Origin: Candidatus Atribacteria bacterium
GTDB lineage: Bacteria; Atribacterota; Phoenicimicrobiia; Phoenicimicrobiales; Stramentimicrobiaceae
Reading direction: 5' to 3'
NCBI GenBank assembly: GCA_029556475.1
Contig: JAKQEP010000114.1
Coordinates: forward strand, 1-37,598
Length of the DNA stretch: 37,598 bases
Positions 23,994-33,103 of the stretch are shown here, one piece after another. How positions within the stretch are numbered: the stretch's first letter is position 1; the number at the start of each line of letters is the position of its first letter. The position numbers and the translations under genes were made by a program. The notes below the pieces were generated by a model that had not been told where the DNA came from, did no database searches, and was given only the letters and a program-made list of their open reading frames with translations.

Positions 23994-24201
23994 GCAATTT
24001 GATCTGATTGAGTCGATTACTGAATTGTTTCATCGCTTGTTTTAATTGACTTTTAAATTTCATTTTATTATAATTAAAAAAATTTAAAATAATAAAAGAT
24101 TTAATTTTTCATAAAATTCGACTTGTTTATTAGTACAAATAATATATACTAAATTATTGTATAAGGATTTAATACTAAGCTAAAAATTCTTTAAGATATA
24201 T

Positions 24202-24207: not shown

Positions 24208-24381
24208 TTTAAAAAAGACATTAAGAACAGGAAAATTATTGGAGTACCTATTTAAAGAGAGTCAGTGTCTGGTGTAAACTGATTAAGGTTCCCAAAAAAC
24301 TCACCTGAAAATTTCTTGAGTGAAAATAACAAATTGATAGCTCAAGACGATGTTCTGCGTTAAAGAAGAAGAAGGGTAGAT

Positions 24382-24457
24382 GGGGCTGTAGCTCAGACGG
24401 GAGAGTGCCTCCTTGGCGTGGAGGAAGTCGCGGGTTCGATTCCCGCCAGCTCCACCA
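24382..24457 (+). tRNA. tRNA-Ala (anticodon GGC)
   Basis: A complete 76-base cloverleaf. The acceptor GGGGCTG pairs with CAGCTCC and includes the G3:U70 pair that identifies tRNA-Ala. The anticodon loop TTGGCGT has GGC at 24415-24417, the T arm is GCGGG TTCGATT CCCGC, and a 3' CCA is encoded (24455-24457). It sits in the same orientation between stem II and the antiterminator of the leuS T-box leader, directly flanked by a six-bp stem. It lacks its own obvious promoter and is probably transcribed with the leader. Confidence 0.95.
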
Positions 24458-24496
24458 TTTTTTATCTACTAAAGAAGGGTGGTACCACGAGTAAAT

Positions 24497-24538
24497 CTCG
24501 TCCCTGGTAATTTTATTATTACAGGTGGCGGGGTTTTT
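24497..24538 (+). terminator. Regulated terminator of the leuS T-box leader
   Basis: CTCGTCCCTG...TAAT (from 24497) pairs with ATTACAGG-TGGCGGGG (ending 24533), with bulged bases, and is followed by TTTTT (24534-24538). The left arm also pairs with the T-box in the antiterminator (ACGAG with CTCGT, AGGG with CCCT), so the two structures are mutually exclusive. Confidence 0.8.
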
Positions 24539-24567
24539 CTATTTTAGGGGAGTGAGATGATAAGACT

Positions 24568-27063
24568 ATGAAAGAGAAATATGATTTTAAAGAAACTGAA
24601 CAAAAATGGCAAAAATTCTGGTATAGTCGGGAACTATTTGAAAATGATATGGTACAAGGTAAGAAAAAATACTATGTTCTGGAAATGTTTCCCTATCCTT
24701 CCGGAGAGCCCCATATGGGACATGTTAAGAATTATGTTATCGGTGATGTGGTAGCTCGATATAAACGCAGCAGAGGTTTTAATATATTACACCCCATGGG
24801 CTGGGATTCATTCGGTTTACCAGCTGAAAATGCTGCTATTAAAAATCAAATTCATCCAGCTATATGGACACAGAATAATATTCAGAAGATGAAAAATACC
24901 TTGATATCAATGGGAATTAGTTATGACTGGAGGCGTGAGGTTACTACCAGTAACCCTGATTACTATAAATGGACTCAATGGATGTTTCTACAACTTTATA
25001 AAAATGGATTGGCTTATAAGAAAAAGGCGGTAGTTAACTGGTGCCCTTCTTGTGCCACAGTATTAGCAAATGAGCAGGTTGTTAACGGGGGTTGTGAGAG
25101 ATGTGGAACCGAGGTTACCCAAAAAGAATTGTCCCAGTGGTTTTTTAAGATAACCGATTATGCCCAGCGGCTTTTAGATGATATGGATATTTTAGAAGAA
25201 TGGCCTGAACGGGTATTAACAATGCAGAGGAATTGGATTGGCAGAAGTGAGGGTACTCAGGTAAACTTTATCCTGGCGGGAACAGGCCAGACCTTCACTG
25301 TTTTTACTACCAGACCTGATACACTCTGCGGGGTAACCTTTTTTGTTCTTTCTCCTGAACATCCCATAGTAGACCAATTGGTTCGAGGTACCGATTATGA
25401 AGAAGAGGTAATGAAATTCAAAGAAGAATTCTTTAAAGAAAAAATTAATGAGAAGAATATTGATTTAACAGAAAAAAGAGGCTGTTTTACCGGTCGATAT
25501 ATTATAAACCCATTAAATCAAGAAAAAGTTCCAATCTGGCTGGCTAATTATGTGCTGATGGAATATGGTACCGGTATGGTTATGGGAGTGCCGGCACACG
25601 ACCAAAGGGATTTAGAATTTGCCCGAAAATATAATTTACCGGTAAGAATAGTTATTCAACCGGAAAATTTCCACCTGAAAGAAGACAACCTACAGGAGGC
25701 ATTTGATCTAGAAGGTATCATGGTTAATTCGGGAAGATTTAATGGGCTTCCCAGTGATAAAGGAAAAGAAATAATAATTGAATATCTAGAAAAAGAGGGT
25801 TTAGGCAAACGAGAAATTAACTATCGTTTAAGGGATTGGTTAATCTCCCGACAACGTTATTGGGGCGCCCCAATACCTATTGTTTATTGTCCTGAATGCG
25901 GAATGGTGCCCGTGCCGGAAAAAGATTTACCGGTTTATCTGCCACAAGATGTTGATTTTAAACCGACTGGCTTATCCCCTTTGCTTTACAGTAAAGAATT
26001 TTTATATACAACCTGTCCTAAATGTGGAGGAGAGGCTAAGAGAGACACCGATACTATGGATACTTTTGTCTGTTCTTCCTGGTATTACCTTCGTTTTTGC
26101 TCACCACATCTGAATAACAAACCCTTTGATGAAAATGAACTCCATTATTGGATGCCGGTAGATCAATACATAGGGGGAGTAGAACATGCTATCCTACACC
26201 TCTTGTATTCCCGATTTTTTGTTAAAGCTCTCTACGATATAGGTTATCTGAAATTTAAAGAACCTTTCAAACGCCTCTTCACCCAGGGTATGGTCTGTAA
26301 GGAAGGGGCTGTAATGTCTAAATCAAAAGGTAACGTGGTTACACCCGGCAATATTTTTAATCAGTATGGTGTAGATGCAACCAGATTAATGATTCTCTTT
26401 GCTGGCCCCCCTGAATTTGATATGGAATGGAGTGAGCGGGGTATTGAGGGTGCATCTCGTTTCTTAAACCGGGTATGGCGAATTGTTCGTCATTACCACA
26501 AATTATTTGCAGAAAAAGGATTAACTAAAAAGAACAATACTAAATCAAGCAGAAAAGAATTTATAAATTTAGAAAGAAAAGCACATCAGACCATAAAAAA
26601 AGTAACCGGGGATATTGAAGATAGATTTCATTTTAACACAGCAATAAGTGCTATCATGGAGTTAGTCAATGAACTATACGGTATCAAGACAAGAATAGCC
26701 GAAATAACTGAAACAGAAAGAGTAATCCTGAAAGAAACAATAGAAAACATTATTAAGCTGCTTGGCCCTATAGCACCTCATTTTTGCGAGGAATTGTGGC
26801 AAAATATTGGACATGAGCAGAGTATTCTTTTTGAAAATTGGCCTATGTATAACCCCGATTTAATTAAAGAAGAACAGATATTAATTGTGGTACAGATAAA
26901 TGGTAAGCTTCGTGATAAGATTGAAGTGCCAGCCGATAGTTCTGAAGAAATAATAAAAAAGATGGTAATAGATTTACCAAAAATAAAAAAGTGGATTAAA
27001 GGTAAAAGAATTGTTAAGATTGTTTATATACCCGGGAAGCTGGTAAATATTGTAGTACATTGA
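24568..27063 (+). CDS. leuS: Leucine-tRNA ligase
   Basis: Leucyl-tRNA synthetase attaches leucine to tRNA-Leu. The 831-residue class I enzyme has a HIGH-type motif HMGH (in [15 protein letters not shown]), an editing CP1 domain containing [21 protein letters not shown] and [16 protein letters not shown], and a KMSKS-type motif [10 protein letters not shown] zinc-site cysteine set (CPSCATV, CERCG) precedes the editing domain, and two further pairs lie later (CPECG, CPKCG). Length is normal for the bacterial type. Expression should be controlled by the T-box leader upstream. ssb follows after 125 bases. Confidence 0.95.
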
Positions 27064-27784: not shown

Positions 27785-27860
27785 GGGCGGATAGCTCAGT
27801 AGGGAGAGCACTGGCTTTACAAGCCAGGGGTCACAGGTTCAAGCCCTGTTCCGCCTACCA
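27785..27860 (+). tRNA. tRNA-Val (anticodon TAC)
   Basis: A 76-base cloverleaf with acceptor GGGCGGA/TCCGCCT (first pair G:U), anticodon stem CTGGC/GCCAG around TTTACAA giving anticodon TAC, discriminator A and encoded CCA. It is first in a cluster of six tRNA genes. Confidence 0.94.
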
Positions 27861-27872
27861 TTGTTTTAAAGT

Positions 27873-27951
27873 GGGGTCGTAGTGCAGTCCGGTCTAACAC
27901 GCCTGCCTGTCACGCAGGAGAACGCGGGTTCAAATCCCGTCGGCCCCGCCA
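27873..27951 (+). tRNA. tRNA-Asp (anticodon GTC)
   Basis: Acceptor GGGGTCG/CGGCCCC, anticodon stem CCTGC/GCAGG with loop CTGTCAC giving GTC, discriminator G as expected for Asp, and encoded CCA. The D loop is long, making the gene 79 bases. It lies 12 bases after tRNA-Val. Confidence 0.93.
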
Positions 27952-27986
27952 TTTTCTTTCAGTAAAGAAATGAACAAGTTTGTGTT

Positions 27987-28059
27987 GCCGAGATAGCTCA
28001 GTCGGTAGAGCAGTGGACTGAAAATCCACGTGTCCCCAGTTCAACTCTGGGTCTCGGCA
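27987..28059 (+). tRNA. tRNA-Phe (anticodon GAA), CCA not encoded
   Basis: Acceptor GCCGAGA/TCTCGGC, anticodon stem GTGGA/TCCAC around CTGAAAA giving GAA. After discriminator A the sequence reads CCT, so the CCA end is added after transcription. The five other genes of the cluster encode CCA; this one does not. Confidence 0.93.
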
Positions 28060-28074
28060 CCTGAAGAATATTTT

Positions 28075-28149
28075 GCGGAAATAGCTCAGCGGTAGAGCAT
28101 CGCCTTGCCAAGGCGAGGGTCGCGGGTTCAAATCCCGTTTTCCGCTCCA
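28075..28149 (+). tRNA. tRNA-Gly (anticodon GCC)
   Basis: Acceptor GCGGAAA/TTTCCGC, anticodon stem TCGCC/GGCGA with loop TTGCCAA giving GCC, discriminator T and encoded CCA; 75 bases. Confidence 0.94.
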
Positions 28150-28191
28150 TTGTTCCAATGTTTCATTTATGATTATTATATTTGAATCTGA

Positions 28192-28265
28192 GGCGGCATA
28201 GCCAAGCGGGAAGGCAGAGGACTGCAAATCCTTTATCCTCGGTTCAAATCCGAGTGCCGCCTCCA
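28192..28265 (+). tRNA. tRNA-Cys (anticodon GCA)
   Basis: Acceptor GGCGGCA/TGCCGCC, anticodon loop CTGCAAA giving GCA, discriminator T as is usual for tRNA-Cys, and encoded CCA; 74 bases. Confidence 0.94.
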
Positions 28266-28289
28266 ATTATAGAAGAAACCCAAAATGTA

Positions 28290-28364
28290 GGGCGGTTAGT
28301 TCAGTGGAAGAATGCTTCCTTGACGCGGAAGAGGTCACTGGTTCAATCCCAGTACCGCCCACCA
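28290..28364 (+). tRNA. tRNA-Val (anticodon GAC)
   Basis: Acceptor GGGCGGT/ACCGCCC, anticodon stem CTTCC/GGAAG around TTGACGC giving GAC, discriminator A and encoded CCA; 75 bases. With tRNA-Val(TAC) at the start of the cluster, this gives two valine isoacceptors side by side. Confidence 0.94.
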
Positions 28365-31729: not shown

Positions 31730-31830
31730 ATATATTTTTTGCGACACTTATAACCCCAAATTTTTTGAAGAAATTTTTAGTTTTTTATAAAAAATATATA
31801 AATAAAAAGTATAAAAAAACTGAGAAATAC

Positions 31831-32060
31831 TAAAAGATAGTAGATAAAACTCGCATTATATTCAAGAAAAGAATAGCAGGTTTTATTGAATTTCACTTTT
31901 AATAAGCCGGCTGAAAATTATTAAATAGGCCAGGACGGATTATCCCGTTAGAGATAAAATAAGTTTGGACTTTAATAATAAGTCAAAAAGGGTGGTAACG
32001 CGGAGAAGTTTATAATTTTCGTCCCTTTATTTAAGGAGAAAATTATAGACTTCTTTTTTT
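31831..32060 (+). promoter_or_regulatory. T-box riboswitch of pheS-pheT with a short stem I
   Basis: The base of stem I is TAAAAG (31831-31836) with CTTTTA (31896-31901). Its specifier loop has AGTA (31839-31842) on the left. On the right are GAA (31888-31890), one T, and the specifier TTC (31892-31894), a Phe codon. Above it TAAAACTCGC (31845-31854) pairs with GCAGGTTTTA (31877-31886), closing in a small hairpin with loop AAGAAAA. The distal AG-bulge and GGNTG elements seen in the leuS leader are absent. The T-box AAGGGTGGTAACGCGG has UGGU at 31993-31996. Confidence 0.8.
32005..32060 (+). terminator. Regulated terminator of the pheS T-box leader
   Basis: GAAGTTTATAATTTTC (32005-32020) and GAAAATTATAGACTTC (32038-32053) form a 16-bp stem with one G:U pair, followed by seven T. 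It is the alternative to the antiterminator, in which the T-box region pairs with CGTCCCT. Confidence 0.85.
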
Positions 32061-32089: not shown

Positions 32090-33103
32090 TTGGATAAAGA
32101 GATGGAAAATTTAAGAGAGAAATTCTTTAAAAAGATGGCTTCTATCAAAAACAGGGAAGAATTACAAAGAATAAGAAATGAATATTTGGGACGTAAAGGA
32201 ATTGTAGCCCAAATGTTGAAGAAGATAACTTCGTTGTCGCCGGAAGAGAAGCCTAGAATTGGTGAATTACTTAATAAAATAAAAAGAGATTTTCAAAAAA
32301 CAATAGCCGAAAAGGATAATGACTTTTTAGCAGAAAATTCTGGAAAAGAAGAGCAGGTAGACATCTCTATTCCAGGTAGAAACTTTATGCTGGGGACCAC
32401 TCATCCTATTGAATTAATCTTGAAATATACTGAAGAAATATTTATGGGAATGGGGTTTTGTATTGTCGATGGGCCGGAAATTGAACTTGATTATTATAAT
32501 TTTGAAGCACTTAATATTCCCAAAGACCACCCGGTAAGAGATGATCAGGATTCTTTCTATATTACCCCGGATATTCTTTTAAGAACTCAGACATCTCCAA
32601 TGCAGGTCAGGACAATGGAGAGTCAGCCTCCCCCTGTGCGGATAATATCCGCTGGAAAATGTTATAGGCGGGATTCCATAGATAATACCCATACCCCCAT
32701 GTTTCATCAAATAGAAGGTCTGGCTGTGGATAAAGATATTTCACTGGCTGATTTAAAAGGTGTCATAACAGAATTTTGTAAACAAATTTTTGGGAAAGAT
32801 AGAATTACAAGATTTAGACCGGGGTATTTCCCCTTTGTAGAGCCAGGAGTTGAGGTTGATGTATCCTGTCAACTGTGTCAGGGCCTGGGATGTCAATCCT
32901 GTGGCTATAGTGGCTGGTTGGAGATTATGGGTGCTGGTATGGTACATCCCAATGTTTTAGAAATGGCTGGTTATAATGTCGAAAAATACACCGGTTTTGC
33001 CTTTGGTATGGGTGCTGAAAGGATTGCTATGTTAAAGTATGGCATTAACGATATCCGTTTATTTTTTGAAAATGATTTACGCTTTTTAAATCAATTCAAA
33101 TAG
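32090..33103 (+). CDS. pheS: Phenylalanine-tRNA ligase alpha subunit
   Basis: The alpha subunit holds the catalytic site of the alpha2-beta2 phenylalanyl-tRNA synthetase. The 337-residue protein has an N-terminal coiled coil (about 1-90), the GTTHPIELILKYTEEIFMGMGF core, motif 2 (SAGKCYRRDSIDNTHTPMFHQIEGL) and motif 3 (GFAFGMGAERIAML). Cysteine pairs (CQLCQGLGCQSC) lie before the AGMVHPNVL segment, as is usual for this enzyme. Start is TTG at 32090, after AGGGAGGG (32076-32083). pheT follows after 30 bases in the same transcript under the T-box. Confidence 0.95.
   Translation: MDKEMENLREKFFKKMASIKNREELQRIRNEYLGRKGIVAQMLKKITSLSPEEKPRIGELLNKIKRDFQKTIAEKDNDFLAENSGKEEQVDISIPGRNFMLGTTHPIELILKYTEEIFMGMGFCIVDGPEIELDYYNFEALNIPKDHPVRDDQDSFYITPDILLRTQTSPMQVRTMESQPPPVRIISAGKCYRRDSIDNTHTPMFHQIEGLAVDKDISLADLKGVITEFCKQIFGKDRITRFRPGYFPFVEPGVEVDVSCQLCQGLGCQSCGYSGWLEIMGAGMVHPNVLEMAGYNVEKYTGFAFGMGAERIAMLKYGINDIRLFFENDLRFLNQFK

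Follow-up and report, generated by a model that had tools for sequence, protein, structure and literature searches.

The leuS leader in the window (the whole stretch of DNA analysed here, 37,598 nucleotides) contains a complete tRNA-Ala(GGC) gene within its T-box, where the tRNA stands in for the loop of stem III. This confirms the central observation of the initial annotation. What is new relative to known T-boxes is the gene nested in the leader: the sensor RNA for one tRNA houses the gene of another tRNA, and the arrangement is kept across two phyla. With a probability of roughly 60%, we favour a composite leader, that is, a leuS T-box with tRNA-Ala(GGC) as its stem III loop, from which the tRNA would be made unconditionally and excised and in which leuS expression would depend on tRNA-Leu. 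Such a transcript would link tRNA biogenesis to synthetase control. The arrangement is also a natural test of linker tolerance in T-boxes, and it invites us to ask whether a riboswitch stays functional once it has been cut in two. The view that no tRNA gene had been described inside a T-box agrees with our literature searches, which covered open-access papers and found no such report. Within the parts reached by the terms searched, the TBDB paper (PMC7778990) is silent on nested tRNAs and the 2008 T-box survey (PMC2494555) makes no mention of them.

The leuS leader and its nested tRNA-Ala gene

The leader was matched by the Rfam covariance model RF00230, with insertions allowed, at positions 24214-24508 (+) and from end to end (model positions 1-219), with a score of 107.8 bits against a gathering score of 93. 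Compared with the model, the leader has a single large insertion, the complete tRNA-Ala(GGC) in the loop of stem III, as had been proposed. The element is thus real, but the start at 24227 given in the initial annotation lies too far downstream: stem I begins near 24220, and its base is cut off. In the RF00230 alignment, stem I with its AG bulge and distal loop motifs occupies 24220-24312 on the plus strand, as do all features below, and is followed by a further leader segment at 24314-24362. The specifier CTC (Leu, 24300-24302), placed by the alignment and the fold, is mostly unpaired in the predicted fold of the leader. It fits the downstream and putatively regulated gene leuS, encoding leucyl-tRNA synthetase (24568-27063), and the cognate tRNA-Leu(GAG) was found in the genome. 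As the initial annotation had claimed, one leader unites stem II and the T-box with a stem I specific for Leu.

The 5' strand of stem III, GGTAGAT (24375-24381), abuts the 5' side of the tRNA, and its 3' strand, ATCTACT (24464-24470), lies on the other side; both were placed by the alignment and the fold. The closure of the tRNA by GTAGAT/ATCTAC, as first described, thus corresponds to the strands of stem III directly around it. The flanks AGAAG before and AA after stem III agree with the RRRNG-stem III-AA motif of T-boxes, as given in a passage of the TBDB paper (PMC7778990). The antiterminator (24477-24506, alignment and fold) carries the T-box bulge TGGT at 24480-24483, which is of the UGGN type and complementary to the discriminator and CCA of a tRNA. 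As the alternative to the antiterminator, an intrinsic terminator hairpin with a T run is predicted at about 24489-24539, and the predicted fold of 24480-24545 has an energy of -20.8 kcal/mol. Since the 5' arm of the terminator overlaps the 3' arm of the antiterminator, the two are mutually exclusive according to structure prediction. A consensus terminator scan of the leader, which allowed loops of at most 8 bases, reported none. The leader shares with leuS-class transcriptional T-boxes (RF00230) a CUC stem I, stem II, IIA/B, a stem III with RRRNG...AA, a UGGU antiterminator and a terminator before leuS, but differs from them in that its stem III loop is a whole tRNA gene for another amino acid. 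On all sequence features tested, the leader is a T-box. The window holds a second T-box at 31825-32029, before an apparent pheS (TTG start at 32090); its specifier is TTC, its stem I is apparently shortened and its stem III is ordinary, without a tRNA.

Positions 24382-24457 were called tRNA-Ala(GGC) by both ARAGORN and RF00005, in agreement with the complete 76-base gene reported initially. The cloverleaf, the GGC anticodon, the encoded CCA and the alanine identity pair G3-U70 can be read from the sequence. No other GGC tRNA-Ala was found in the window's assembly, which is 84% complete. Among 22 genomes checked with a strict tRNA-Ala(GGC) pattern, 18 had a single copy, always at the leuS-linked place, and four, all Bacillota, gave no match to the pattern. 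For genome annotation this means that the checked genomes appear to encode tRNA-Ala(GGC) only inside a leader. Elsewhere in the window, a cluster of six tRNA genes lies at 27785-28364 between an ssb-like gene and thrS, and its tRNA order recurs downstream of leuS in two further loci (L070 and L166).

Distribution and decay of the arrangement

Related genomes were searched with a pattern consisting of the tRNA 3' half, CCA and a T-box core within 34 bases. Of 50 Atribacterota genomes, 17 had the pattern, and these all belong to one order. The closest relatives that carry a name are likewise Atribacterota. The whole leader was matched across the genus and family of the window, and its half from the tRNA to leuS across a second family of the same order. 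ARAGORN found tRNA-Ala(GGC) at every matched Atribacterota place, and RF00230 spans the tRNA in 16 further Atribacterota loci, the match being weak in L046 because part of its stem I is gone. The comparison of leuS leaders that the initial annotation had called for thus places the arrangement in related genomes, and the concern that the tRNA might appear only through assembly errors does not hold; with many independent genomes sharing the arrangement, an assembly error is ruled out.

The same pattern matched 76 of 399 sampled Bacillota genomes, which is the rate of the pattern in the sample and not of confirmed leaders; the reversed control gave 0 matches. These genomes are labelled Bacillota by way of two search centres, L074 (Bacillus sp.) and L098 (Clostridia), both of which yielded the same set. 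When 55 of the matches were fetched, 52 proved to be tRNA-Ala(GGC), two were cut by contig ends and one was false, being a tRNA-Leu without a T-box. RF00230 covers the full model in all 52 loci and exceeds the gathering score in 37, and leuS lies downstream in 46. Over the Atribacterota and Bacillota loci together, a pattern recognized the specifier CUC in 58 of 69, and visual inspection identified it in most of the others. Across the bacterial domain (386 genomes), the pattern appeared only in the same Atribacterota order, apart from a single match whose sequence does not resemble a T-box. Hence the trait is neither confined to Atribacterota, as the Bacillota matches demonstrate, nor common to all bacteria, as the domain sample demonstrates, and its conservation in two phyla rules out chance. 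In four Bacillota loci (L226, L227, L228 and L229), a nested tRNA-Ala with a Leu specifier precedes not leuS but an acyl-CoA synthetase-like (AMP-binding) gene, a family assigned by eye from the translation. Two loci, L203 and L214, have group II intron sequences just 3' of the T-box terminator, at the position expected for leuS.

Other Atribacterota have a simpler unit before leuS (e.g., L060-L068 and L168-L174). It resembles the window in having the same tRNA-Ala(GGC) before leuS with a short terminator between them, but it lacks stem I and the T-box core, and its promoter lies close before the tRNA. The terminators of these outgroup genomes are similar to the T-box terminator and often read CTCGTCC...GGACGGGC. 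Moreover, stem I is lost or partly lost in L054, L046 and L199, and the T-box core is lost in L057, with tRNA-Ala and the terminator being kept in all four. Judged by their sequences, these loci are natural stages of leader decay; L057 (genome G016), with its tRNA and a T-box-like terminator without a core, looks as if a T-box had decayed there. Such losses, together with outgroup terminators such as CTCGTCCC...GGGACGGGC, could be taken to mean that the T-box no longer works at all and that only the tRNA and the terminator matter. We consider this scarcely credible, as the leader of the window scores above the curated threshold and most relatives conserve the specifier, the AG bulge and the T-box core.

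In a LeuS tree, the Atribacterota formed one clade (support 0.986), and the order with the T-box was one of its two branches (0.975). The tree thus lends no support to the idea that this order recently acquired leuS from Bacillota. Both the outgroup terminators and the LeuS clade would be consistent with an ancient nested leader and its loss from some of the Atribacterota. It is also possible that the leader was gained around a pre-existing tRNA-leuS pair, or that the leader alone moved between the phyla. LeuS of L215, L216 and L217 does not group with that of the other Bacillota carriers, although their leaders do not differ in kind; the gene may have been replaced behind a retained leader.

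Promoter position and the closing helix of stem III

The window's best promoter is a sigma-70-type site, TTGACT-17-TATAAT (24046-24074, +), with 11 of 12 consensus matches. It lies 5' of the entire leader, approximately 145 bases upstream of stem I, a distance greater than in relatives. In 61 of the 69 loci, a strong promoter-like site preceded the T-box and was separated from the tRNA by more than 150 bases. Nearer promoter-like sites were few and confined to leaders that are short or without stem I, and no consensus promoter was detected between stem I and the tRNA in the 69 loci, save where stem I is lost. The initial annotation had considered that tRNA-Ala might be transcribed from its own promoter, but no internal promoter was found by this consensus search. 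We support, as a prediction, its suggestion that a single transcript would both give rise to a tRNA and control a synthetase.

The flanks of the tRNA were examined for pairing across loci. In Bacillota, flanks from the same locus paired with -8.89 kcal/mol and flanks from different loci with -6.22 kcal/mol, and 0 of 10000 permutations, in which kinship was ignored, were as good. As base composition may contribute to this result, the test was anchored at the hexamer before AA. In the anchored test, a perfect 6-bp helix was present in 31 of 50 Bacillota loci, compared with a permutation mean of 14.8 and a maximum of 24 (20000 permutations, kinship ignored). Among the 50 loci, 17 distinct helices occurred, with changes in both partners at five of the six pairs; 46 loci kept the AA that follows stem III in the motif. 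Therefore, we conclude that the closing helix covaries in Bacillota. In Atribacterota it is nearly invariant, and covariation is for this reason uninformative in the lineage of the window. Shuffling each locus's own 3' flank gave p ≤ 0.05 in 13 of 52 Bacillota loci and p = 0.33 in the window; this per-locus test is weak, so the argument for the closing helix rests on the matched and anchored tests.

The compensatory changes that keep the closing helix and the flanking AA in Bacillota bear on the reading in which stem III tolerates any insert and the tRNA merely borrows the promoter, with no mutual effect between tRNA and switch. Such a passive passenger would fit the other Atribacterota that have the same tRNA before leuS without any T-box, and the fact that the tRNA outlives decayed leaders. 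On the other hand, besides the covariation, the arrangement has persisted in two phyla and the tRNA is positioned before the terminator and not after it, and we regard this reading as unlikely.

The initial annotation had further proposed that the ACCA end of the nested tRNA competes in cis, pairing with the UGGU of the T-box bulge and thereby rivalling tRNA-Leu. The minimum-energy fold of the window leader indeed pairs ACCA and the U-rich trailer with the AAGAAGGGUGGU stretch, and a weak signal of covariation in this trailer extension was obtained for Bacillota (81 of 10000 permutations as good). In Atribacterota, however, no covariation was seen (6218 of 10000 permutations as good), and a match between ACCA and UGGU is inherent to any A73 tRNA. 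In addition, binding by a T-box needs a free acceptor 3' end (PMC4695836), which a precursor tRNA does not have, and the anticodon GGC does not match the specifier CUC. Among the active readings, competition in cis is thus the weakest, and we hold it to be highly improbable.

Proposed excision of the tRNA and control of leuS

According to the composite leader that we favour, a single upstream promoter would drive the tRNA, the switch and leuS. As the tRNA precedes the terminator, all transcripts would contain it; terminated and read-through transcripts alike would carry tRNA-Ala, which would thus be made unconditionally and, unlike leuS, independently of leucine. Uncharged tRNA-Leu(GAG) would bridge stem I and the antiterminator and thereby allow read-through into leuS. 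RNase P and 3' maturation would then remove the tRNA from stem III, and in read-through transcripts this cut would create a fresh 5' terminus for the leuS mRNA immediately upstream of the antiterminator. The closing helix would keep stem III formed around the 76-base insert and, being conserved, may hold the two halves of the leader together briefly after the cut. From the sequence we infer that the T-box is active, that the tRNA is processed, and at what point this happens with respect to termination.

Cleavage of a T-box leader has a precedent, as the thrS T-box leader of Bacillus subtilis is cut by an endonuclease, RNase J or Y (PMC3542257). The leader of the window would differ from it in that the cut is expected to be made by the enzymes of tRNA maturation, and what they remove would itself be a product. 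Similarly, RNase P parts tRNAs from other RNA in polycistronic tRNA transcripts (E. coli cases, PMC9433436), but in the window the tRNA interrupts a regulatory RNA domain instead of adjoining another gene.

The timing of the cut could itself matter. Excision that separates the sensor from leuS, as the initial annotation had suggested, seems plausible, for a complete RNase P substrate lies exactly between the sensor and the switch. If the cut were made co-transcriptionally, it would sever stem I from the antiterminator, and leuS expression would be set by a race of processing against transcription, and the supply of synthetase would be coupled to the capacity of RNase P. Without stem I, the antiterminator is believed not to bind the 3' end of the tRNA (PMC4919913), so that induction should be lost after an early cut if nothing holds the halves together. 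Pairing of the leader near the cut site slows RNase P (PMC9433436), and the closing helix could in this way set the timing; the paired leader bases here, however, face the trailer and not RCCA. The halves could also stay joined through the closing helix or the bridging tRNA-Leu; in another T-box, the bound full complex can last for more than 1 hour in vitro (PMC5951919). We think it doubtful that leuS is controlled by such a race.

A related reading, which we put forward tentatively and consider unlikely, keeps the early cut and dispenses with the loss of function. Here, the tRNA would be routinely cut out during transcription and the riboswitch would work in two pieces, joined by the stem III helix and tRNA-Leu. 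Were the switch to work in this manner, tRNA maturation would itself contribute to the control of the synthetase or feed into it.
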